This document shows, in pieces, positions 16,899-27,285 of a stretch of 39,808 nucleotides of DNA (positions are counted from its first letter, which is position 1; each line of letters opens with the position of its first letter). The stretch comes from a bacterium. GTDB taxonomy: Bacteria; SZUA-79; Acidulodesulfobacterales; Acidulodesulfobacteraceae. The stretch is from contig JAJYJI010000014.1 in the NCBI GenBank assembly GCA_021789605.1, positions 1-39,808 on the forward strand, in the 5' to 3' direction. The position numbers were made by a program, and so were the translations under genes. Under the pieces are notes generated by a model that saw only the letters and a program-made list of their open reading frames with translations, was not told the origin of the DNA and ran no database searches.

Positions 16899-18272
16899 AT
16901 GAATAAAAAACTTATCAAAGAATTTGAGGCATTGTTGGGAAAAGAGCGGGTTCTGTCGGAAACCGAAGAACTTCTTTGTTATTCTTACGATGCCACGTCC
17001 AAGGACTTTATGCCCGATGTCGTAGTATTTCCGCTTAATGCCGAAGAAATATCCAAAATAGTTAAACTATGTTTAAAATATAATACTCCTGTCGTCGGAA
17101 GAGGCGCCGGAAGCGGATTTTCCGGAGGAAGCCTGCCGCTAAAAGGCGGAGCCGTAGTTTCGTTTACGAAAATGAACCGCGTTCTGGAATTAGACGAAGC
17201 AAATATGTTTGTTACCGTTGAACCCGGTATAATAAACGCCGACCTGAAGTCTTATCTTGCCGAAAAAGGATATTTTTATCCTCCAGACCCCGCAAGTTAT
17301 GAATTTTCGACTATAGGGGGCAATGTTGCAGAATGTTCCGGCGGACCTGTTGCGGTAAAATACGGCGTTACCAAAGACTACGTTGCGGCGCTGGAGGTTA
17401 TAACGGGGGAAGGCGAGATAATAAATACGGGTTCAAAAACCGTAAAAAACGTATCCGGGTATAATCTTACTCAGCTTATGACCGGTTCGGAAGGCACTCT
17501 CGGCCTTTTTTCCAAAATTACGCTTAAAATTTTATCGAAACCGGAAGCAAATTCGCTGATTTTAACGTCGTTCGACGATATTAAGAACGGATTTAACGCC
17601 GCGATTTCTCTTTTGAAACTAAGAAACAGACCGTCTATGCTCGAATTTATGGACAAATCTTCCATAGAATCCGTCAAGGGTTATTTTAAAAGCGATATAA
17701 TAAAAATAAAGGGCAATTTTCTGTTTATTATAGAAGCAGACGGTTCTCAAGAAGAGGTGGATAAATCCATAGGGGAATATGAAAAAATATTAGAAAAATT
17801 TTTACCGGTTTTTCTTTTTGCTTCGGGAAAAGACGAGGATAAAAAAGTAATAATGGATGCGAGAAAAGCCATATCTCCCTCTTTAAGGAAATACGGCGAC
17901 CTTAAAATAAATAACGATATAGCCGTTCCGGTAGATAAGATTCCGCGGATGCTTTCGTTTTTAGGAGAAACTTCGCTAAAATACGATATTCCGATTATAA
18001 ATTTCGGACATTTCGGAGACGGCAATATCCACGTAAATATTATGCTGGATAAAAACGACGGCGGAATGGTTAAAAAGGGCGAAAGGGCAAAATACGATAT
18101 TCTAAAAAAGGCCGTCGAACTAGGTGGAAGCTTATCGGGCGAGCACGGGATAGGACTCGAAAAGAAAGAGTTTATGAAATTAAAATACGGCGAATATTAT
18201 ATGAATATTTTAAAAAATATTAAACAGGTATTTGACCCGCAAAATATTATAAACCCCGGAAAGATTTTTTAG
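16899..18272 (+). CDS. glcD: FAD-linked 2-hydroxyacid oxidase, GlcD-type subunit
   Basis: This 457-residue flavoprotein of the glycolate oxidase/D-lactate dehydrogenase family has an N-terminal FAD-binding type 4 domain. Visible motifs are VVGRGAGSGFSGGS, VEPGIINADL, PPDPASYEFSTIGGNVAECSGG and GSEGTLGLFSKITL. The C-terminal oxidase domain has INFGHFGDGNIHVN and GEHGIGLEKKEFM, with the catalytic His region. It should oxidise glycolate or D-lactate and pass electrons to the Fe-S partner encoded next. The exact substrate cannot be told from sequence alone. Confidence 0.9.
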   Translation: MNKKLIKEFEALLGKERVLSETEELLCYSYDATSKDFMPDVVVFPLNAEEISKIVKLCLKYNTPVVGRGAGSGFSGGSLPLKGGAVVSFTKMNRVLELDEANMFVTVEPGIINADLKSYLAEKGYFYPPDPASYEFSTIGGNVAECSGGPVAVKYGVTKDYVAALEVITGEGEIINTGSKTVKNVSGYNLTQLMTGSEGTLGLFSKITLKILSKPEANSLILTSFDDIKNGFNAAISLLKLRNRPSMLEFMDKSSIESVKGYFKSDIIKIKGNFLFIIEADGSQEEVDKSIGEYEKILEKFLPVFLFASGKDEDKKVIMDARKAISPSLRKYGDLKINNDIAVPVDKIPRMLSFLGETSLKYDIPIINFGHFGDGNIHVNIMLDKNDGGMVKKGERAKYDILKKAVELGGSLSGEHGIGLEKKEFMKLKYGEYYMNILKNIKQVFDPQNIINPGKIF

Positions 18273-18302
18273 TCTGAGCTTTATAGGCTCGTCAATCTTT
18301 CT

Positions 18303-18370
18303 GGATTCCTGCTTGCGCAAGAATGACGCCTTTTGAGTAAAAAGTAAACTCTCATATTTTCATTCCTGCG
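18303..18370. repeat. Short intergenic repeat with inverted ends
   Basis: GGATTCCTGCTTGCGCAAGAATGAC (18303-18327, given here only by its core TTGCGCAA) and the reversed-looking CATTCCTGCG at 18361 bracket a small spacer. The string CTGCTTGCGCAAGAATGAC at 18309-18327 matches 17 of 19 bases at 21211-21229, so it belongs to a dispersed family. It lies in the 151-bp gap between glcD and glcF. Confidence 0.5.
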
Positions 18371-18423: not shown

Positions 18424-20046
18424 TTGAAAGAAAAAGATACGACTTATCTTAATTGCGTTCATTGCGGCAAGTGTCTGCCTGTTTGTCCGTCGTATAATAC
18501 CGGTTTAAACGAGTTTTTCAGCCCGAGGGGCAGGGTGCGTTTAGTTTTAACAGATAACGCCGACAAACTTCCATTGAGAGCGTCGAAGGTTGCCGAATCG
18601 ATGTCCGCCTGTCTTTTATGCGGAAGATGCGTTAAAATATGTCCTAACGACGTAAAAATAGACGAATTGGTAATAGACGAAAAAATAAAGCTGAACGAAT
18701 CTGCGGGCAGAGCTTTTTCAATTGACAAATTTGCATTAAAAGCGCTTAAAAGCAAAAGAAAAGTTTTATTAAAATCCGCCTTAAAAATTGCAAATATTCC
18801 GATAATAGAAAAACTGGCCGGCAGATATGCGCCTCAGCCTGAAGGGAAATCTTTCATCGCAGATAGAGACCTTATATTTAATGCCGATGCCGCCGTTATG
18901 CAATCCCCGTCAGGCAACCGCCCCGCCCTACGGGCACCCCTCCTTGAAAGGAGGGGAGTTATAGGAGAATCTATATATACTTCGTTAGAAAACCCGCAGT
19001 CCCCGCGTCTTAAGAAGAGGGGAGTTATAGGAGAATCTATATATACTTCGTTAGAAAACCCGCAGTCCCTGCGTCTTAAGAAGAGAGGAGTTATAGGAGA
19101 ATCTATATATACTTCGTTAGAAAACCCGCAGTCCCTGCGTCTTAAGAAGAGAGGAGTTATAGGAGAATCTATATATACTTCGTTAGAAAACCCGCAGTCC
19201 CTGCGTCTTAAGAAGAGAGGAGTTATAAGGCAATCAGCCGATGAGGACGGTAAAAATATTTTTAAAGTAGGTTATTTCAGCGGATGCGTTTTTAATAACA
19301 TATATCCGCAGATATCTGCCGATACCGTGACTTCCCTGACGAAAAACGGCATCGAGGTTTTTGTTCCAAAATCGCAGGGCTGCTGCGGACTCCCTTTTAT
19401 ATCCAGCGGAGACGTAAAATCCTTTAAAGAGCTTGCGCTGAACAATGCCGCCGCTTTTAGAGGAAAAGATTTAGAATATATTATTACTTCCTGCGCATCG
19501 TGTTCATACTCCATAAATAAACTCTATCCTTTATATTTTTGCGAAAACGACGAAGACCGCGCCGATATTTTGAATTTTTCCAATAAATTGCTTAATATAT
19601 GGTCATTCTTTAAAGAACTCGAAAAAAATGGCGTTAACGTAAAAGCAGGAAAATTAAAACAAGAAACTTCGGCTGTTTTTCATATACCCTGCCATCTTTC
19701 AAATTCTTCGGAATTTAAATCTTCTTCCGAGAATGAAAGACTGATAGGCGAAGCAGGATTAATTATAGATAAAATCGACGGCTTAAAATTAAAGCCTTTA
19801 AAGCATAACTATTGTTGCGGCAACGGCGGAATGTTCAATATAAGGCATTACGACTTATCGAAAAAAATTACAAAACGCAAGTTCAAAGAAATTAGAGAGG
19901 CATCTCCGGAAGAAATCTTAACGTCCTGTTCCGGCTGTATGTTTTCCCTAAAAGACCAGACGGGAACGTTAAAAGAAAATGAAAGATTGCCGGTAAGCCA
20001 CTTAGTTAGCGTTTATGCCCAAAGTCTAAAAGAATTAAAAGAATGA
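18424..20046 (+). CDS. glcF: GlcF-type iron-sulfur oxidoreductase subunit with in-frame repeat insertion
   Basis: The N-terminal ferredoxin domain has two 4Fe-4S motifs, CVHCGKCLPVCP and CLLCGRCVKICP. Two CCG (heterodisulfide-reductase-like) domains follow from about residue 280, with SGCVF, GCCGLPF, SCASCSY, then PCHLSN, NYCCGNGGM and SCSGCMF. It should take electrons from the GlcD flavoprotein and hand them to quinone or another carrier. Residues about 160-268 are an insertion made of a DNA palindrome and four 22-residue repeats. Without it the protein would be about 430 residues, the family norm. The start is TTG 18424, with AAGGAG at 18408-18413. Its stop lies inside the convergent kinase gene's end (12-bp overlap). 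Confidence 0.88.
   Translation: MKEKDTTYLNCVHCGKCLPVCPSYNTGLNEFFSPRGRVRLVLTDNADKLPLRASKVAESMSACLLCGRCVKICPNDVKIDELVIDEKIKLNESAGRAFSIDKFALKALKSKRKVLLKSALKIANIPIIEKLAGRYAPQPEGKSFIADRDLIFNADAAVMQSPSGNRPALRAPLLERRGVIGESIYTSLENPQSPRLKKRGVIGESIYTSLENPQSLRLKKRGVIGESIYTSLENPQSLRLKKRGVIGESIYTSLENPQSLRLKKRGVIRQSADEDGKNIFKVGYFSGCVFNNIYPQISADTVTSLTKNGIEVFVPKSQGCCGLPFISSGDVKSFKELALNNAAAFRGKDLEYIITSCASCSYSINKLYPLYFCENDEDRADILNFSNKLLNIWSFFKELEKNGVNVKAGKLKQETSAVFHIPCHLSNSSEFKSSSENERLIGEAGLIIDKIDGLKLKPLKHNYCCGNGGMFNIRHYDLSKKITKRKFKEIREASPEEILTSCSGCMFSLKDQTGTLKENERLPVSHLVSVYAQSLKELKE
18937..18956. repeat. Perfect palindrome inside glcF
   Basis: CCCCTCCTT and AAGGAGGGG flank a 2-base centre, giving a 9-bp stem. 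Just upstream GCCC-TAC-GGGC forms a second small hairpin (18926-18936). Such CCCCTCC/GGAGGGG palindromes are usually intergenic mobile-like repeats. Here the palindrome is in frame within the coding region and directly abuts the tandem repeats. Confidence 0.7.
18955..19218 (+). repeat. Four 66-bp tandem repeats within glcF
   Basis: Units begin with GGAGTTATAGGAGAATC at 18955, 19021, 19087 and 19153, and a fifth partial unit starts at 19219. The period is exactly 66 bp (22 codons), so the frame is kept. Copies 2-4 are nearly identical and copy 1 differs at a few positions. The encoded unit reads RGVIGESIYTSLENPQS followed by PRLKK or LRLKK. The near identity indicates recent duplication or gene conversion. 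Confidence 0.92.
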
Positions 20047-24523: not shown

Positions 24524-25285
24524 ATGCATATAATACCCCAGCTCGAAACTCCGGCAGGCGAAAATTTTATAAATTTTGAAGAAAATTTAATAAAACTCAT
24601 AAACGCAATAGAAAATTCGGGATTAAACGGGCGCTATAAGCGGCAAGATTTACCCGGCATAGTTCTGGAGCAGAATTTTGGTTTTAACGGTTTGATTTTA
24701 TGCAAAGATTTAAAAGAAAGGCGAAAAAATCTAAATATAATTTATGCATTTAATATGAGGGATAAAAACCGTATATCCATTTTATCCGACCTTATCACGT
24801 TAAAGCAGATAGGAGTGCGAGATATAATAATATCCGAAGGCGTTCACCCGTTAAAAACGGTTTTTAATTCCGCCAAACCGGTTTACGACATAGATGTTGC
24901 AGGCTTATCGTTAATTTTAAAGAAGGACATAGTCGGCGGCATTTTTGACGGGCTCATAAACAATGAAATGCAGGGCTTTTTTAATCTCGGCGTCGTCGCA
25001 GGAGCGTCAACCGAGGCCGACGGTTTAAAAATTAAAAAATTAATCAAAATCGGGGCGGATAAATTTATAATAAATTTTGCGGCCGGAAGTCCCGACCAAA
25101 ACATACTAAATTTTATAAAATCCGAAAAAAAAGATATTTTATTATACATTAATGAACAAGATATAAAAGGTTCTTTGGATAATTTTATAAAAAGCGTGAA
25201 TAAACTGAACTTAGACGGCGTTATAATAAAAATTTCTAATGAAAAGGATAACGTTTTCATGCAATATATCGATAAACATCAATAA
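24524..25285 (+). CDS. metF: MetF-like 5,10-methylene-THF reductase
   Basis: The 253-residue protein is a divergent, short member of the MTHFR TIM-barrel family (usual length near 290). It starts with IIPQLETPAGENF, where the family has an acidic FE(F/I)xPP block. It has NIIYAFNMRDKNRISILSDL, which matches the folate/FAD region H(L/I)xCRDRNRxALQSDL, and IGVRDIIISEGVHP. With MetV it should reduce methylene-THF to methyl-THF. iorA starts on the last base of its stop codon (TAATG), so translation is coupled. The assignment rests on motifs and on the metV neighbour. Confidence 0.75.
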   Translation: MHIIPQLETPAGENFINFEENLIKLINAIENSGLNGRYKRQDLPGIVLEQNFGFNGLILCKDLKERRKNLNIIYAFNMRDKNRISILSDLITLKQIGVRDIIISEGVHPLKTVFNSAKPVYDIDVAGLSLILKKDIVGGIFDGLINNEMQGFFNLGVVAGASTEADGLKIKKLIKIGADKFIINFAAGSPDQNILNFIKSEKKDILLYINEQDIKGSLDNFIKSVNKLNLDGVIIKISNEKDNVFMQYIDKHQ

Positions 25286-27285
25286 TGAATAAAACAAATC
25301 TATTTGTCAGCGGAACCGAAGGCGACAAAGGCATTGTCCTTGGAAATGAAGCGATAGCGCGCGGGGCGTTAGAAGCGGGCATTGGTTATGCGTCGATGTA
25401 TCCGGGAACGCCGGCATCGGAAATTATCGCCGTACTCGATAAAAATAAAAAAAAAATAGAAAATCTATATACGGAATTCAGTTTAAACGAGCACATTTCT
25501 CTTCACGGAGCCATAGGCGCTTCATGGTCGGGCATAAGGTCGCTTTGCGCCATGAAGAACGTTGGGCTTAACGTTGCGAGCGAACCCGCGCAGTTTCTAT
25601 CTTATACGGGCGTAAAGGCGGGATTGGTCGTCGCCATAGGGTCGGACCCCGGCGCGCCGAGCAGTTCAAACGAGCAGGACGACAGATGGTACAGCCTGCA
25701 TACCTATATGCCGATAATCGAACCTTCAAATATTCAGGAAGCAAAAGATTTTACAAAAAACGCTTTCGATATATCGGAAGCGTTTTCTTTCGGCATTATA
25801 TTAATGGCTCCTTCAAGATTATGCCATAATGCTGGAAGACTTTATTTCGGCAGTTTAAGAGGCAGGTCTGATATTAAGGGGAATTTTAAAAAAGACCCTG
25901 AAAACTATTTGAATCTTTTTAATATGGCGGTTAAAAATCATGCTAAATATTTAAAAAGAAACGAAATGCTTAAAAACTTTCTTATAACGTCGGATTTTAA
26001 CAAAATTATAAACTCAAGTTCTTCTAAAATAGGTTTTATATCTTCGGGCGTCATTTATGCCCATTTAATGGAATCCTTGGATATTCTAGGCATTTACGAC
26101 CATAAAATATTAAAATTGGGCTTTACATTTCCCATACCGAACGAACTTATAAAAAATTTTTTTAAAGGACTTGAAAAAGTCGTCATCATTGAAGAAGCCG
26201 AAGGATTTTTGGAATTTCAAATTAAAAAAATAGCTTATGAAACCGGTTTCAGGGGCGAGATACACGGAAAGGATTTTTTTAAACAGGCTGGAGAGCTGAC
26301 CTTGGACGATGTAATCGCCGGTACGGCAAAATTTTTAGAAAAGCCTCCTCCCGTTTTTTTTGATTTGGCGTTAAAAAAGAACAAAGAATTGCTGAATAAA
26401 GATAAAATGCCCCAAAGGTCGGGAACTTTTTGCGTAGGATGTCCCCATCGCGCGACGTTTTATTCTATCCTAAAGGCAGTCGGATATTCAAATACGGAAG
26501 CAAAAGAAAGAGACGTAGTTATAGCCGGAGATATAGGATGTTATACTCTGGGCCTTTTGCCGCCTTATAACGCAATGGATTTTCTTACGTGTATGAATGC
26601 CGGACTCGGTATAGGGCAGGCTATAAGCATTTTCGATAAAAGTAAAAAGGTCATTGCGCTTGTAGGGGATTCGACCTTTTTTCATTCCGGCATTCCGGTA
26701 TTGCTTAATGCGGTCCAAAACAATGCGGATATTTTATATATTATTCTTGATAACAGCTGGACGGCAATGACGGGACATCAAAAGACCCCTTCCACCCGGG
26801 AAGATATAGACGGCACCCCGTCCGCGAACACTTTGAATTTGAAGGATTTAGTAAAATCTCTTGGGGTGGAATATATTAAAAGCATCGACCCTAATAGCGT
26901 GAAAAGATTTGCTTCCCTGATTAAAAGCGCATTGAAAGAACCGGGAGTAAAGGTAATAATTGCCAAGAGAGAATGCGTTCTTCAGGAAATCAGAAGGGAC
27001 AGGCTTTTAGGGAAAAATAAAGGGTCTCTTCATGAAATAGAAGGCTCTCTTTACGAGATTCAAAAGTCGAGGTGCGTAAAATGCGATGAATGTTTCGTCG
27101 AACTTGGCTGTCCTGCTATTATCCTTAAAAAGGATGCGGAAGAAAAGGGCGAATATTATTATATCGACCCCGTTTCTTGCGTAAAATGCGGCGTATGCCA
27201 CGAAGTTTGCCCAAATAGCGCAATACGAAAAGTAGAATTTAATTTAAATTCAAAATTTAAATTAAAACAAAAAATTAATATATGA
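25285..27285 (+). CDS. iorA: Indolepyruvate ferredoxin oxidoreductase alpha subunit
   Basis: IorA is the TPP-containing subunit that oxidatively decarboxylates aryl-pyruvates to acyl-CoA, reducing ferredoxin. The 666-residue protein has the pyrimidine-side domain (GNEAIARGALEAG, MYPGTPASEI, SLHGAIGASWSG), a central domain and the TPP-binding domain. The last has FCVGCPHRA, GDIGCYTLG and VGDSTFFHSGIP with LDNSWTAMTGHQ. At the C-terminus (about residues 596-645) are two ferredoxin motifs, CVKCDECFVELGCP and CVKCGVCHEVCP. The first is of the unusual IOR spacing. It overlaps metF by 1 bp and iorB by 4 bp. Confidence 0.94.
   Translation: MNKTNLFVSGTEGDKGIVLGNEAIARGALEAGIGYASMYPGTPASEIIAVLDKNKKKIENLYTEFSLNEHISLHGAIGASWSGIRSLCAMKNVGLNVASEPAQFLSYTGVKAGLVVAIGSDPGAPSSSNEQDDRWYSLHTYMPIIEPSNIQEAKDFTKNAFDISEAFSFGIILMAPSRLCHNAGRLYFGSLRGRSDIKGNFKKDPENYLNLFNMAVKNHAKYLKRNEMLKNFLITSDFNKIINSSSSKIGFISSGVIYAHLMESLDILGIYDHKILKLGFTFPIPNELIKNFFKGLEKVVIIEEAEGFLEFQIKKIAYETGFRGEIHGKDFFKQAGELTLDDVIAGTAKFLEKPPPVFFDLALKKNKELLNKDKMPQRSGTFCVGCPHRATFYSILKAVGYSNTEAKERDVVIAGDIGCYTLGLLPPYNAMDFLTCMNAGLGIGQAISIFDKSKKVIALVGDSTFFHSGIPVLLNAVQNNADILYIILDNSWTAMTGHQKTPSTREDIDGTPSANTLNLKDLVKSLGVEYIKSIDPNSVKRFASLIKSALKEPGVKVIIAKRECVLQEIRRDRLLGKNKGSLHEIEGSLYEIQKSRCVKCDECFVELGCPAIILKKDAEEKGEYYYIDPVSCVKCGVCHEVCPNSAIRKVEFNLNSKFKLKQKINI

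Follow-up and report, generated by a model that had tools for sequence, protein, structure and literature searches.

What a palindrome and a run of 66-bp repeats are doing in the reading frame of an iron–sulfur protein, and how they came to be there, is the question raised by the window analysed here, which takes in all 39.8 kb of contig C14 from the draft genome G000 (2.0 Mb, 87 contigs). Our reading, to which we give a probability of roughly 0.78, is that a genus-wide two-hairpin REP-like element entered the hinge of a GlcF-like protein in frame and that a 66-bp unit then expanded to about four copies. The locus comprises the following features, in order along the window.

18424–20046, plus strand: GlcF-like iron–sulfur protein with a Fer4 and two CCG domains and an in-frame insert (540 aa, TTG start)
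18448–18654, plus strand: Fer4 (4Fe-4S dicluster) domain match, aa 9–77, N-terminal of the insert
18916–18960, plus strand: complete two-hairpin REP-like element, AACCGCCCC-GCCC TAC GGGC-A-CCCCTCCTTGAAAGGAGGGG-AGTT, translated NRPALRAPLLERRGV
18925–18935, no strand assigned: stem 1, GCCC-TAC-GGGC, a hairpin that covaries among copies
18937–18956, no strand assigned: stem 2, the perfect palindrome CCCCTCCTTGAAAGGAGGGG
18957–19022, plus strand: 66-bp unit 1, a 46-bp spacer and the degenerate palindrome CCGCGTCTTAAGAAGAGGGG
19023–19088, plus strand: 66-bp unit 2, the spacer as in unit 1 and CTGCGTCTTAAGAAGAGAGG
19089–19154, plus strand: 66-bp unit 3, identical to unit 2
19155–19220, plus strand: 66-bp unit 4, identical to unit 2
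19221–19239, plus strand: right border of the insert, containing GTTATAAGGCAATC at 19222–19235
19267–19515, plus strand: first CCG (HdrB-like) domain match, aa 282–364, C-terminal of the insert

The open reading frame has no stop anywhere across the insert, which lies between the ferredoxin and first CCG domains, as an earlier note on this DNA had described, and likeness of the product to solved HdrB structures starts at aa 281. In relatives without the insert the GlcF-like protein is 423–437 aa long, so that taking out about 113–120 aa gives the normal length, again in agreement with that note. Because the NCBIfam GlcF model scored the product at 117.7 bits, under its cut-off of 333, 'GlcF-like' is the safe name; the upstream open reading frame (16899–18272) is GlcD-like (433 bits versus a cut-off of 567.9). 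In the intergenic gap between these two genes, on the minus strand, lies a CGTC-type repeat, CGTCATTCTTGCGCAAGCAGGAATCCA (18302–18328), from a separate palindromic repeat family. Tandem Repeats Finder placed an array at 18951–19227 with a period of 66, 99% match and 4.2 copies, matching the four units and partial fifth first noticed beside the palindrome; this is the count in one fragmented assembly in which three units are identical, and the true number hangs on reads. Unit 1 differs from units 2–4 at two bases. The right-border sequence GTTATAAGGCAATC resembles GTTAT-GCAATC on the left side (18895–18905), possibly as a target duplication or a copy of the flank.

The palindrome, previously taken for the element itself, proved to be dispersed but to be just one half of a larger REP-like element, which begins at 18916 and has two hairpins. 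The expected number of palindromes, from 100 dinucleotide shuffles, was 0. With the loop allowed to vary, it occurs 11 times at five sites in G000; exact palindromes are also present in 11 of the 15 other genus genomes examined and number 1–26 per genome in 12 of 16, and the reversed pattern, used as a control, had zero occurrences in the genus genomes scanned for the palindrome. We retrieved, oriented and stacked roughly 75 palindrome loci, and their consensus reads AACC(A/G)CCCC, stem 1, A or T, stem 2 (the palindrome) and AG(T/C)T. Complete copies, 45–53 bp long, occur at dozens of loci across the genus. Folded as single-stranded DNA, the copy at 18916–18960 forms two adjacent hairpins (z = −3.1). 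Stem 1 starts with GTC, GGC or GCC and exists as GTCAGGC/GCCTGAC, GGCAGGC/GCCTGCC, GTCGGCC/GGCCGAC and GCCC/GGGC, with compensatory, two-sided changes at positions 2, 4 and 6. Among 34 distinct sequences chosen regardless of pairing, 95% of stem-1 cells pair, as against 81% in shuffles (0 of 2,000 as high, with kinship of the copies ignored). Only a minority of the roughly 75 loci lie inside long open reading frames, and the element is thus mostly extragenic, which bears out the intergenic character first ascribed to the palindrome; as in REPs, a short imperfect palindrome is present in many dispersed copies per genome. Rfam 15 returned no relevant match for the five loci submitted (L020, L167, L168, L192 and L208). 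Outside the genus, a distant genome (G033, L171–L175) holds 21 identical palindromes, CCCCTCCTTACGAAGGAGGGG, several of them close to contig ends, and a Pontibacter genome (G041, L192) holds 31 palindromes, many paired 153–158 bp apart, like a fixed-length non-autonomous element.

We then scanned the retrieved loci for long open reading frames running through the element. Besides the GlcF-like protein, four or more further protein families of the genus contain in-frame copies, with interior copies in PMT_2 glycosyltransferases (two sites), AAA_33-domain kinases, HsdM and HsdS. At PMT_2 site 1 the element is present in G001, G010 and G015 and missing from G011, and at site 2 it is present in G001, G010 and G011 and missing from G015; in G010 the PMT_2 domain match is interrupted by the insert. 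The PMT_2 orthologues at L096, L106, L147 and L160 gained two different in-frame sites in different species, and the G015 protein possibly has a third. The peptides encoded by the element (NRPALRAPLLERRGV, TPLLKRRGVGRRPTG, TPLLFKEGSQASPDGVV, PPRPSGTPPSKEGK and LPSFQGGEL) are unlike one another, since the element is read in both orientations and in several frames, many of the frames, though not all, being free of stops. The in-frame palindromic RPE of Rickettsia proteins (Ogata 2000, reviewed in PMC2229807), which had been offered as an analogy, is therefore an apt one: here too a palindromic element lies in frame in several unrelated proteins, as it does for intragenic GTAG/CGTC REPs, of which clusters in Thauera and R. 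conorii code for 43–82 aa (Di Nocera 2013, PMC3733652). The element differs from RPE in sequence, host lineage and want of a CGTC tag, and at 45–53 bp is shorter than RPE at 105–146 bp, the two being set apart here by length and tag rather than by alignment. With the present case, in-frame entry of a palindromic element into proteins extends to a lineage outside the Rickettsiales.

To follow the insert at one site, glcF relatives were aligned as protein and as DNA. The window carries the element and four units, G013 the element and two diverged units, G008, G010 and G015 the element and one unit, and G004 and G011 the element with 0 units; in G002, G005 and G014 only the right part of the insert is left as a remnant, and in G001, G003, G007 and all other genera the linker has no element. 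The copy-number variation that the earlier note had anticipated is thus present among relatives. This series of 0, 1, 2 and 4 units in sister species makes a 66-bp expansion traceable at one protein site, a point of difference from RPE and intragenic REPs, and offers a natural record of how insertions are tolerated and expand. The G015 unit, which is older, has CCCTACTTCTTAAGAAGGAGG where the window has CTGCGTCTTAAGAAGAGAGG, supporting the earlier proposal that the unit end is a degraded palindrome arm and, with it, the derivation of the array from the palindromic element. A protein tree built with the linker removed, many of whose inner branches are weak, places insert-bearing G010 and insert-free G001 as close sisters (support 96/90). 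Since this near-sister pair differs in presence and absence, the insert looks tolerated and dispensable, and the G001 protein suggests that the GlcF-like protein does not need it. The simplest reading of its history is early gain with several losses, or recombination.

The same comparison bears on another reading, in which selection has long maintained the array as a protein domain, a repeat linker tuning GlcF function, and the palindrome is incidental. The insert has been kept in seven species with a recognisable peptide, and its codon differences have not accumulated faster than those of the CCG domains, as a selected domain would lead one to expect. However, a shared unit count together with a conserved linker peptide, which the earlier note would have read as an old functional domain, is not what the relatives show: the unit number differs in almost every lineage and the near-sister G001 has none, and the DNA of the element also occurs between genes and, differently framed and oriented, within unrelated proteins. 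We regard a selected domain as most improbable. The insert codons carry no clear selective signal in either direction, and the peptide is probably selectively neutral. Purifying selection on it was considered and rejected, as the counts were too few and did not differ from those of the CCG domains.

Arrays are not special to glcF. All six element loci of G000 (on C2, C3, C14, C25, C60 and C77) are arrays of at least three copies, compared with 2 of the 74 element loci in the other genus genomes; at C3 an array of the element and four units stands against a single element at the matching G010 locus (L109). The arrays share a plan of palindrome and spacer in which the spacer is constant inside a locus and different between loci, with periods of 63–69 at many loci and of about 118–128 and 157 at others. 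The spacer may be a copy of the element's own flank. Local alignment of spacers with the stem-1-side flank gave mixed, mostly weak results, with p values of 0.02–0.04 at two loci and 0.003 at one and no signal at glcF or most other loci. A CRISPR array was considered and rejected, as spacers are identical or nearly so inside an array and different between arrays.

Every array was counted in a draft assembly; an assembler could have created or miscounted the multi-copy array around an element that is itself real. The G000 arrays all have about 3–4.5 copies of the main unit, at C60 the right flank is duplicated and there is an N gap, and three glcF units are identical, all of which an artefact could produce. 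Against this, unit 1 is unlike units 2–4, a unit-to-unit junction is impossible with a single unit, and multi-unit arrays occur in the separate assemblies G013, G015 and G003, so that an artefact is improbable. The element is present at the glcF site in seven separate genome assemblies, which answers the earlier concern about an artefact for the element, though not for the exact copy number. Assembly quality may contribute to the contrast between 6 of 6 and 2 of 74, and some palindromes of other genomes sit near contig ends. At C60 (about 24973–25720, L169), a 157-bp unit array is followed by the N gap and the second right-flank copy, which are likely a scaffolding error.

Palindromes and direct repeats favour replication slippage, and, with no partner protein involved, plain slippage at the palindrome and at the degenerate copy next to it could have built the array; three identical glcF units are what a recent event of this kind would leave. 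Slippage may well be the physical step by which copies are made, but it leaves unexplained both a dispersed family with a covarying stem 1 and the occurrence of all six G000 element loci as arrays, and as the whole account we consider it rather unlikely.

A candidate for a partner, absent from the earlier note, is a DUF559 nuclease gene, which the palindrome family flanks in many phyla. An intact DUF559 gene is present in three genus genomes (G000, G003 and G015), in each of which the element lies on one or both sides of it; the protein was assigned to the family by Pfam PF04480 and by a sequence match to PDB 3hrl. A scan of GTDB genomes with a five-member alignment yielded 80 loci with relatives of that gene (L178–L257) from Bacteroidota, Acidobacteriota, Verrucomicrobiota, Marinimicrobia, Nitrospinota and others. 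At 62 of these 80 loci the DUF559 gene has a GC-rich hairpin (stem 9 or longer) no more than 200 bp away on either side, often on both (upstream 44 of 79, downstream 47 of 80), as against a background farther away of 4–15% per 500-bp bin (for example, 4 of 75 and 7 of 76 at 500–1,000 bp). Hairpins of the CCCCTCC..GGAGGGG type, present at 41 of the 80 loci, are commoner beside DUF559 genes than in neighbouring sequence. Within the genus, arrays of at least three copies occur at 8 of 22 loci in the three DUF559-bearing genomes and at 0 of 58 in the nine genomes that have the element but no DUF559 gene (p about 1e-5 by locus, 0.005 by genome), a contrast that comes from three genomes and mostly from G000 (6 of 6 loci), the genomes being related and incomplete; without G000 it is 2 of 16 versus 0 of 58. 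We take this correlation as a lead rather than proof, and consider the DUF559 (Vsr-like) gene to be the likely partner of the element. We know of no transposase activity in DUF559 proteins.

In classical REP systems the partner is a RAYT, a Y1 tyrosine transposase, whose gene lies between two inverted REPs and, in one third of cases, next to BIMEs (Nunvar 2010, PMC2817692). The present element resembles RAYT-associated REPs, REPINs and BIMEs (PMC2817692; Bertels and Rainey 2011, PMC3116915) in its short hairpins dispersed mostly between genes, its compensatory changes, its inverted copies around a small nuclease-type gene with arrays beside it, and its regularly spaced clusters, in which inter-palindrome segments are unrelated and which have arisen repeatedly. 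In a REPIN the mobile unit is two inverted REPs with a short spacer between them; here inverted pairs occur at L104, L107, L108 and L156, but most loci hold single copies, and glcF holds the element with its units. As in E. coli BIME-2 (PMC2817692), a palindrome–spacer unit is repeated in tandem; unlike there, the array lies in frame within a protein gene. The element also departs from RAYT REPs in its pair of adjoining hairpins, the second of them almost invariant, and in a copy number in the tens rather than hundreds. No GTAG or CGTC tag is present, CCRCCCC preceding stem 1 and A or T preceding stem 2, and the gene flanked encodes a DUF559 PD-(D/E)XK nuclease in place of a Y1 tyrosine transposase. 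CGTC REPs, two RPE families included, are said to have no dedicated transposase (PMC3733652). The element is thus REP-, BIME- and RPE-like, though it has neither a GTAG nor a CGTC tag and DUF559 replaces RAYT. Movement by a RAYT in the cell would agree with the one Y1_Tnp match in G000; that copy, however, has an internal stop, and neither such a palindrome nor an AACCRCCCC motif lies within 1.5 kb of it. With its sole Y1_Tnp copy broken and not flanked by the element, and with DUF559 genes flanked instead, we rejected a RAYT as mobiliser, a very improbable one here.

Together, these observations allow us to propose a course of events. The element would have landed in frame in the ferredoxin/HdrB-like hinge in an ancestor of part of the genus, where it was tolerated because this copy is stop-free in the frame read and because extra length can be accommodated in the hinge. 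Together with the 46 bp adjoining it, a degenerate second palindrome would then have become the 66-bp unit, which would have multiplied to about four copies in the lineage of the window. The DUF559 protein, a Vsr-like PD-(D/E)XK nuclease, would most likely recognise single-stranded hairpins and nick or cut them, leading to mobilisation, array expansion or both; repair by copying, or slippage and recombination between neighbouring palindromes, could spread and multiply the element. The mobility of the element is suggested by comparison of genomes rather than by an event caught directly. More tentatively, and at somewhat less than even odds, a second, phylum-spanning class of REPs, with two hairpins and a CCCCTCC..GGAGGGG core, may have DUF559 nucleases as its cognate enzymes, which would cut the hairpin DNA, spread copies through genomes and into protein genes and drive the arrays.

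DUF559 as a class of partner enzyme for a REP-like element is possibly new. The closest functional report concerns VsrA of Caulobacter, a DUF559/Vsr-like protein, which is proposed to act in the repair of TG mismatches in connection with cytosine methylation (PMC12907096), and the literature found on DUF559, YcjD and Vsr-like proteins mentions neither flanking palindromes nor a dispersed repeat family. The literature searched, thin on subscription journals and preprints, held no description of DUF559-linked repeats. DUF559 is a very common but uncharacterised nuclease family, and its link to one specific repeated hairpin makes its function testable. At one G000 locus (C25, L070 1228–1887), the DUF559 gene is preceded by an array that stays open in the frame of the gene and encodes three 22-aa repeats, so that a nuclease with a repeat N-terminus could be produced there, a downstream ATG being the likelier start.
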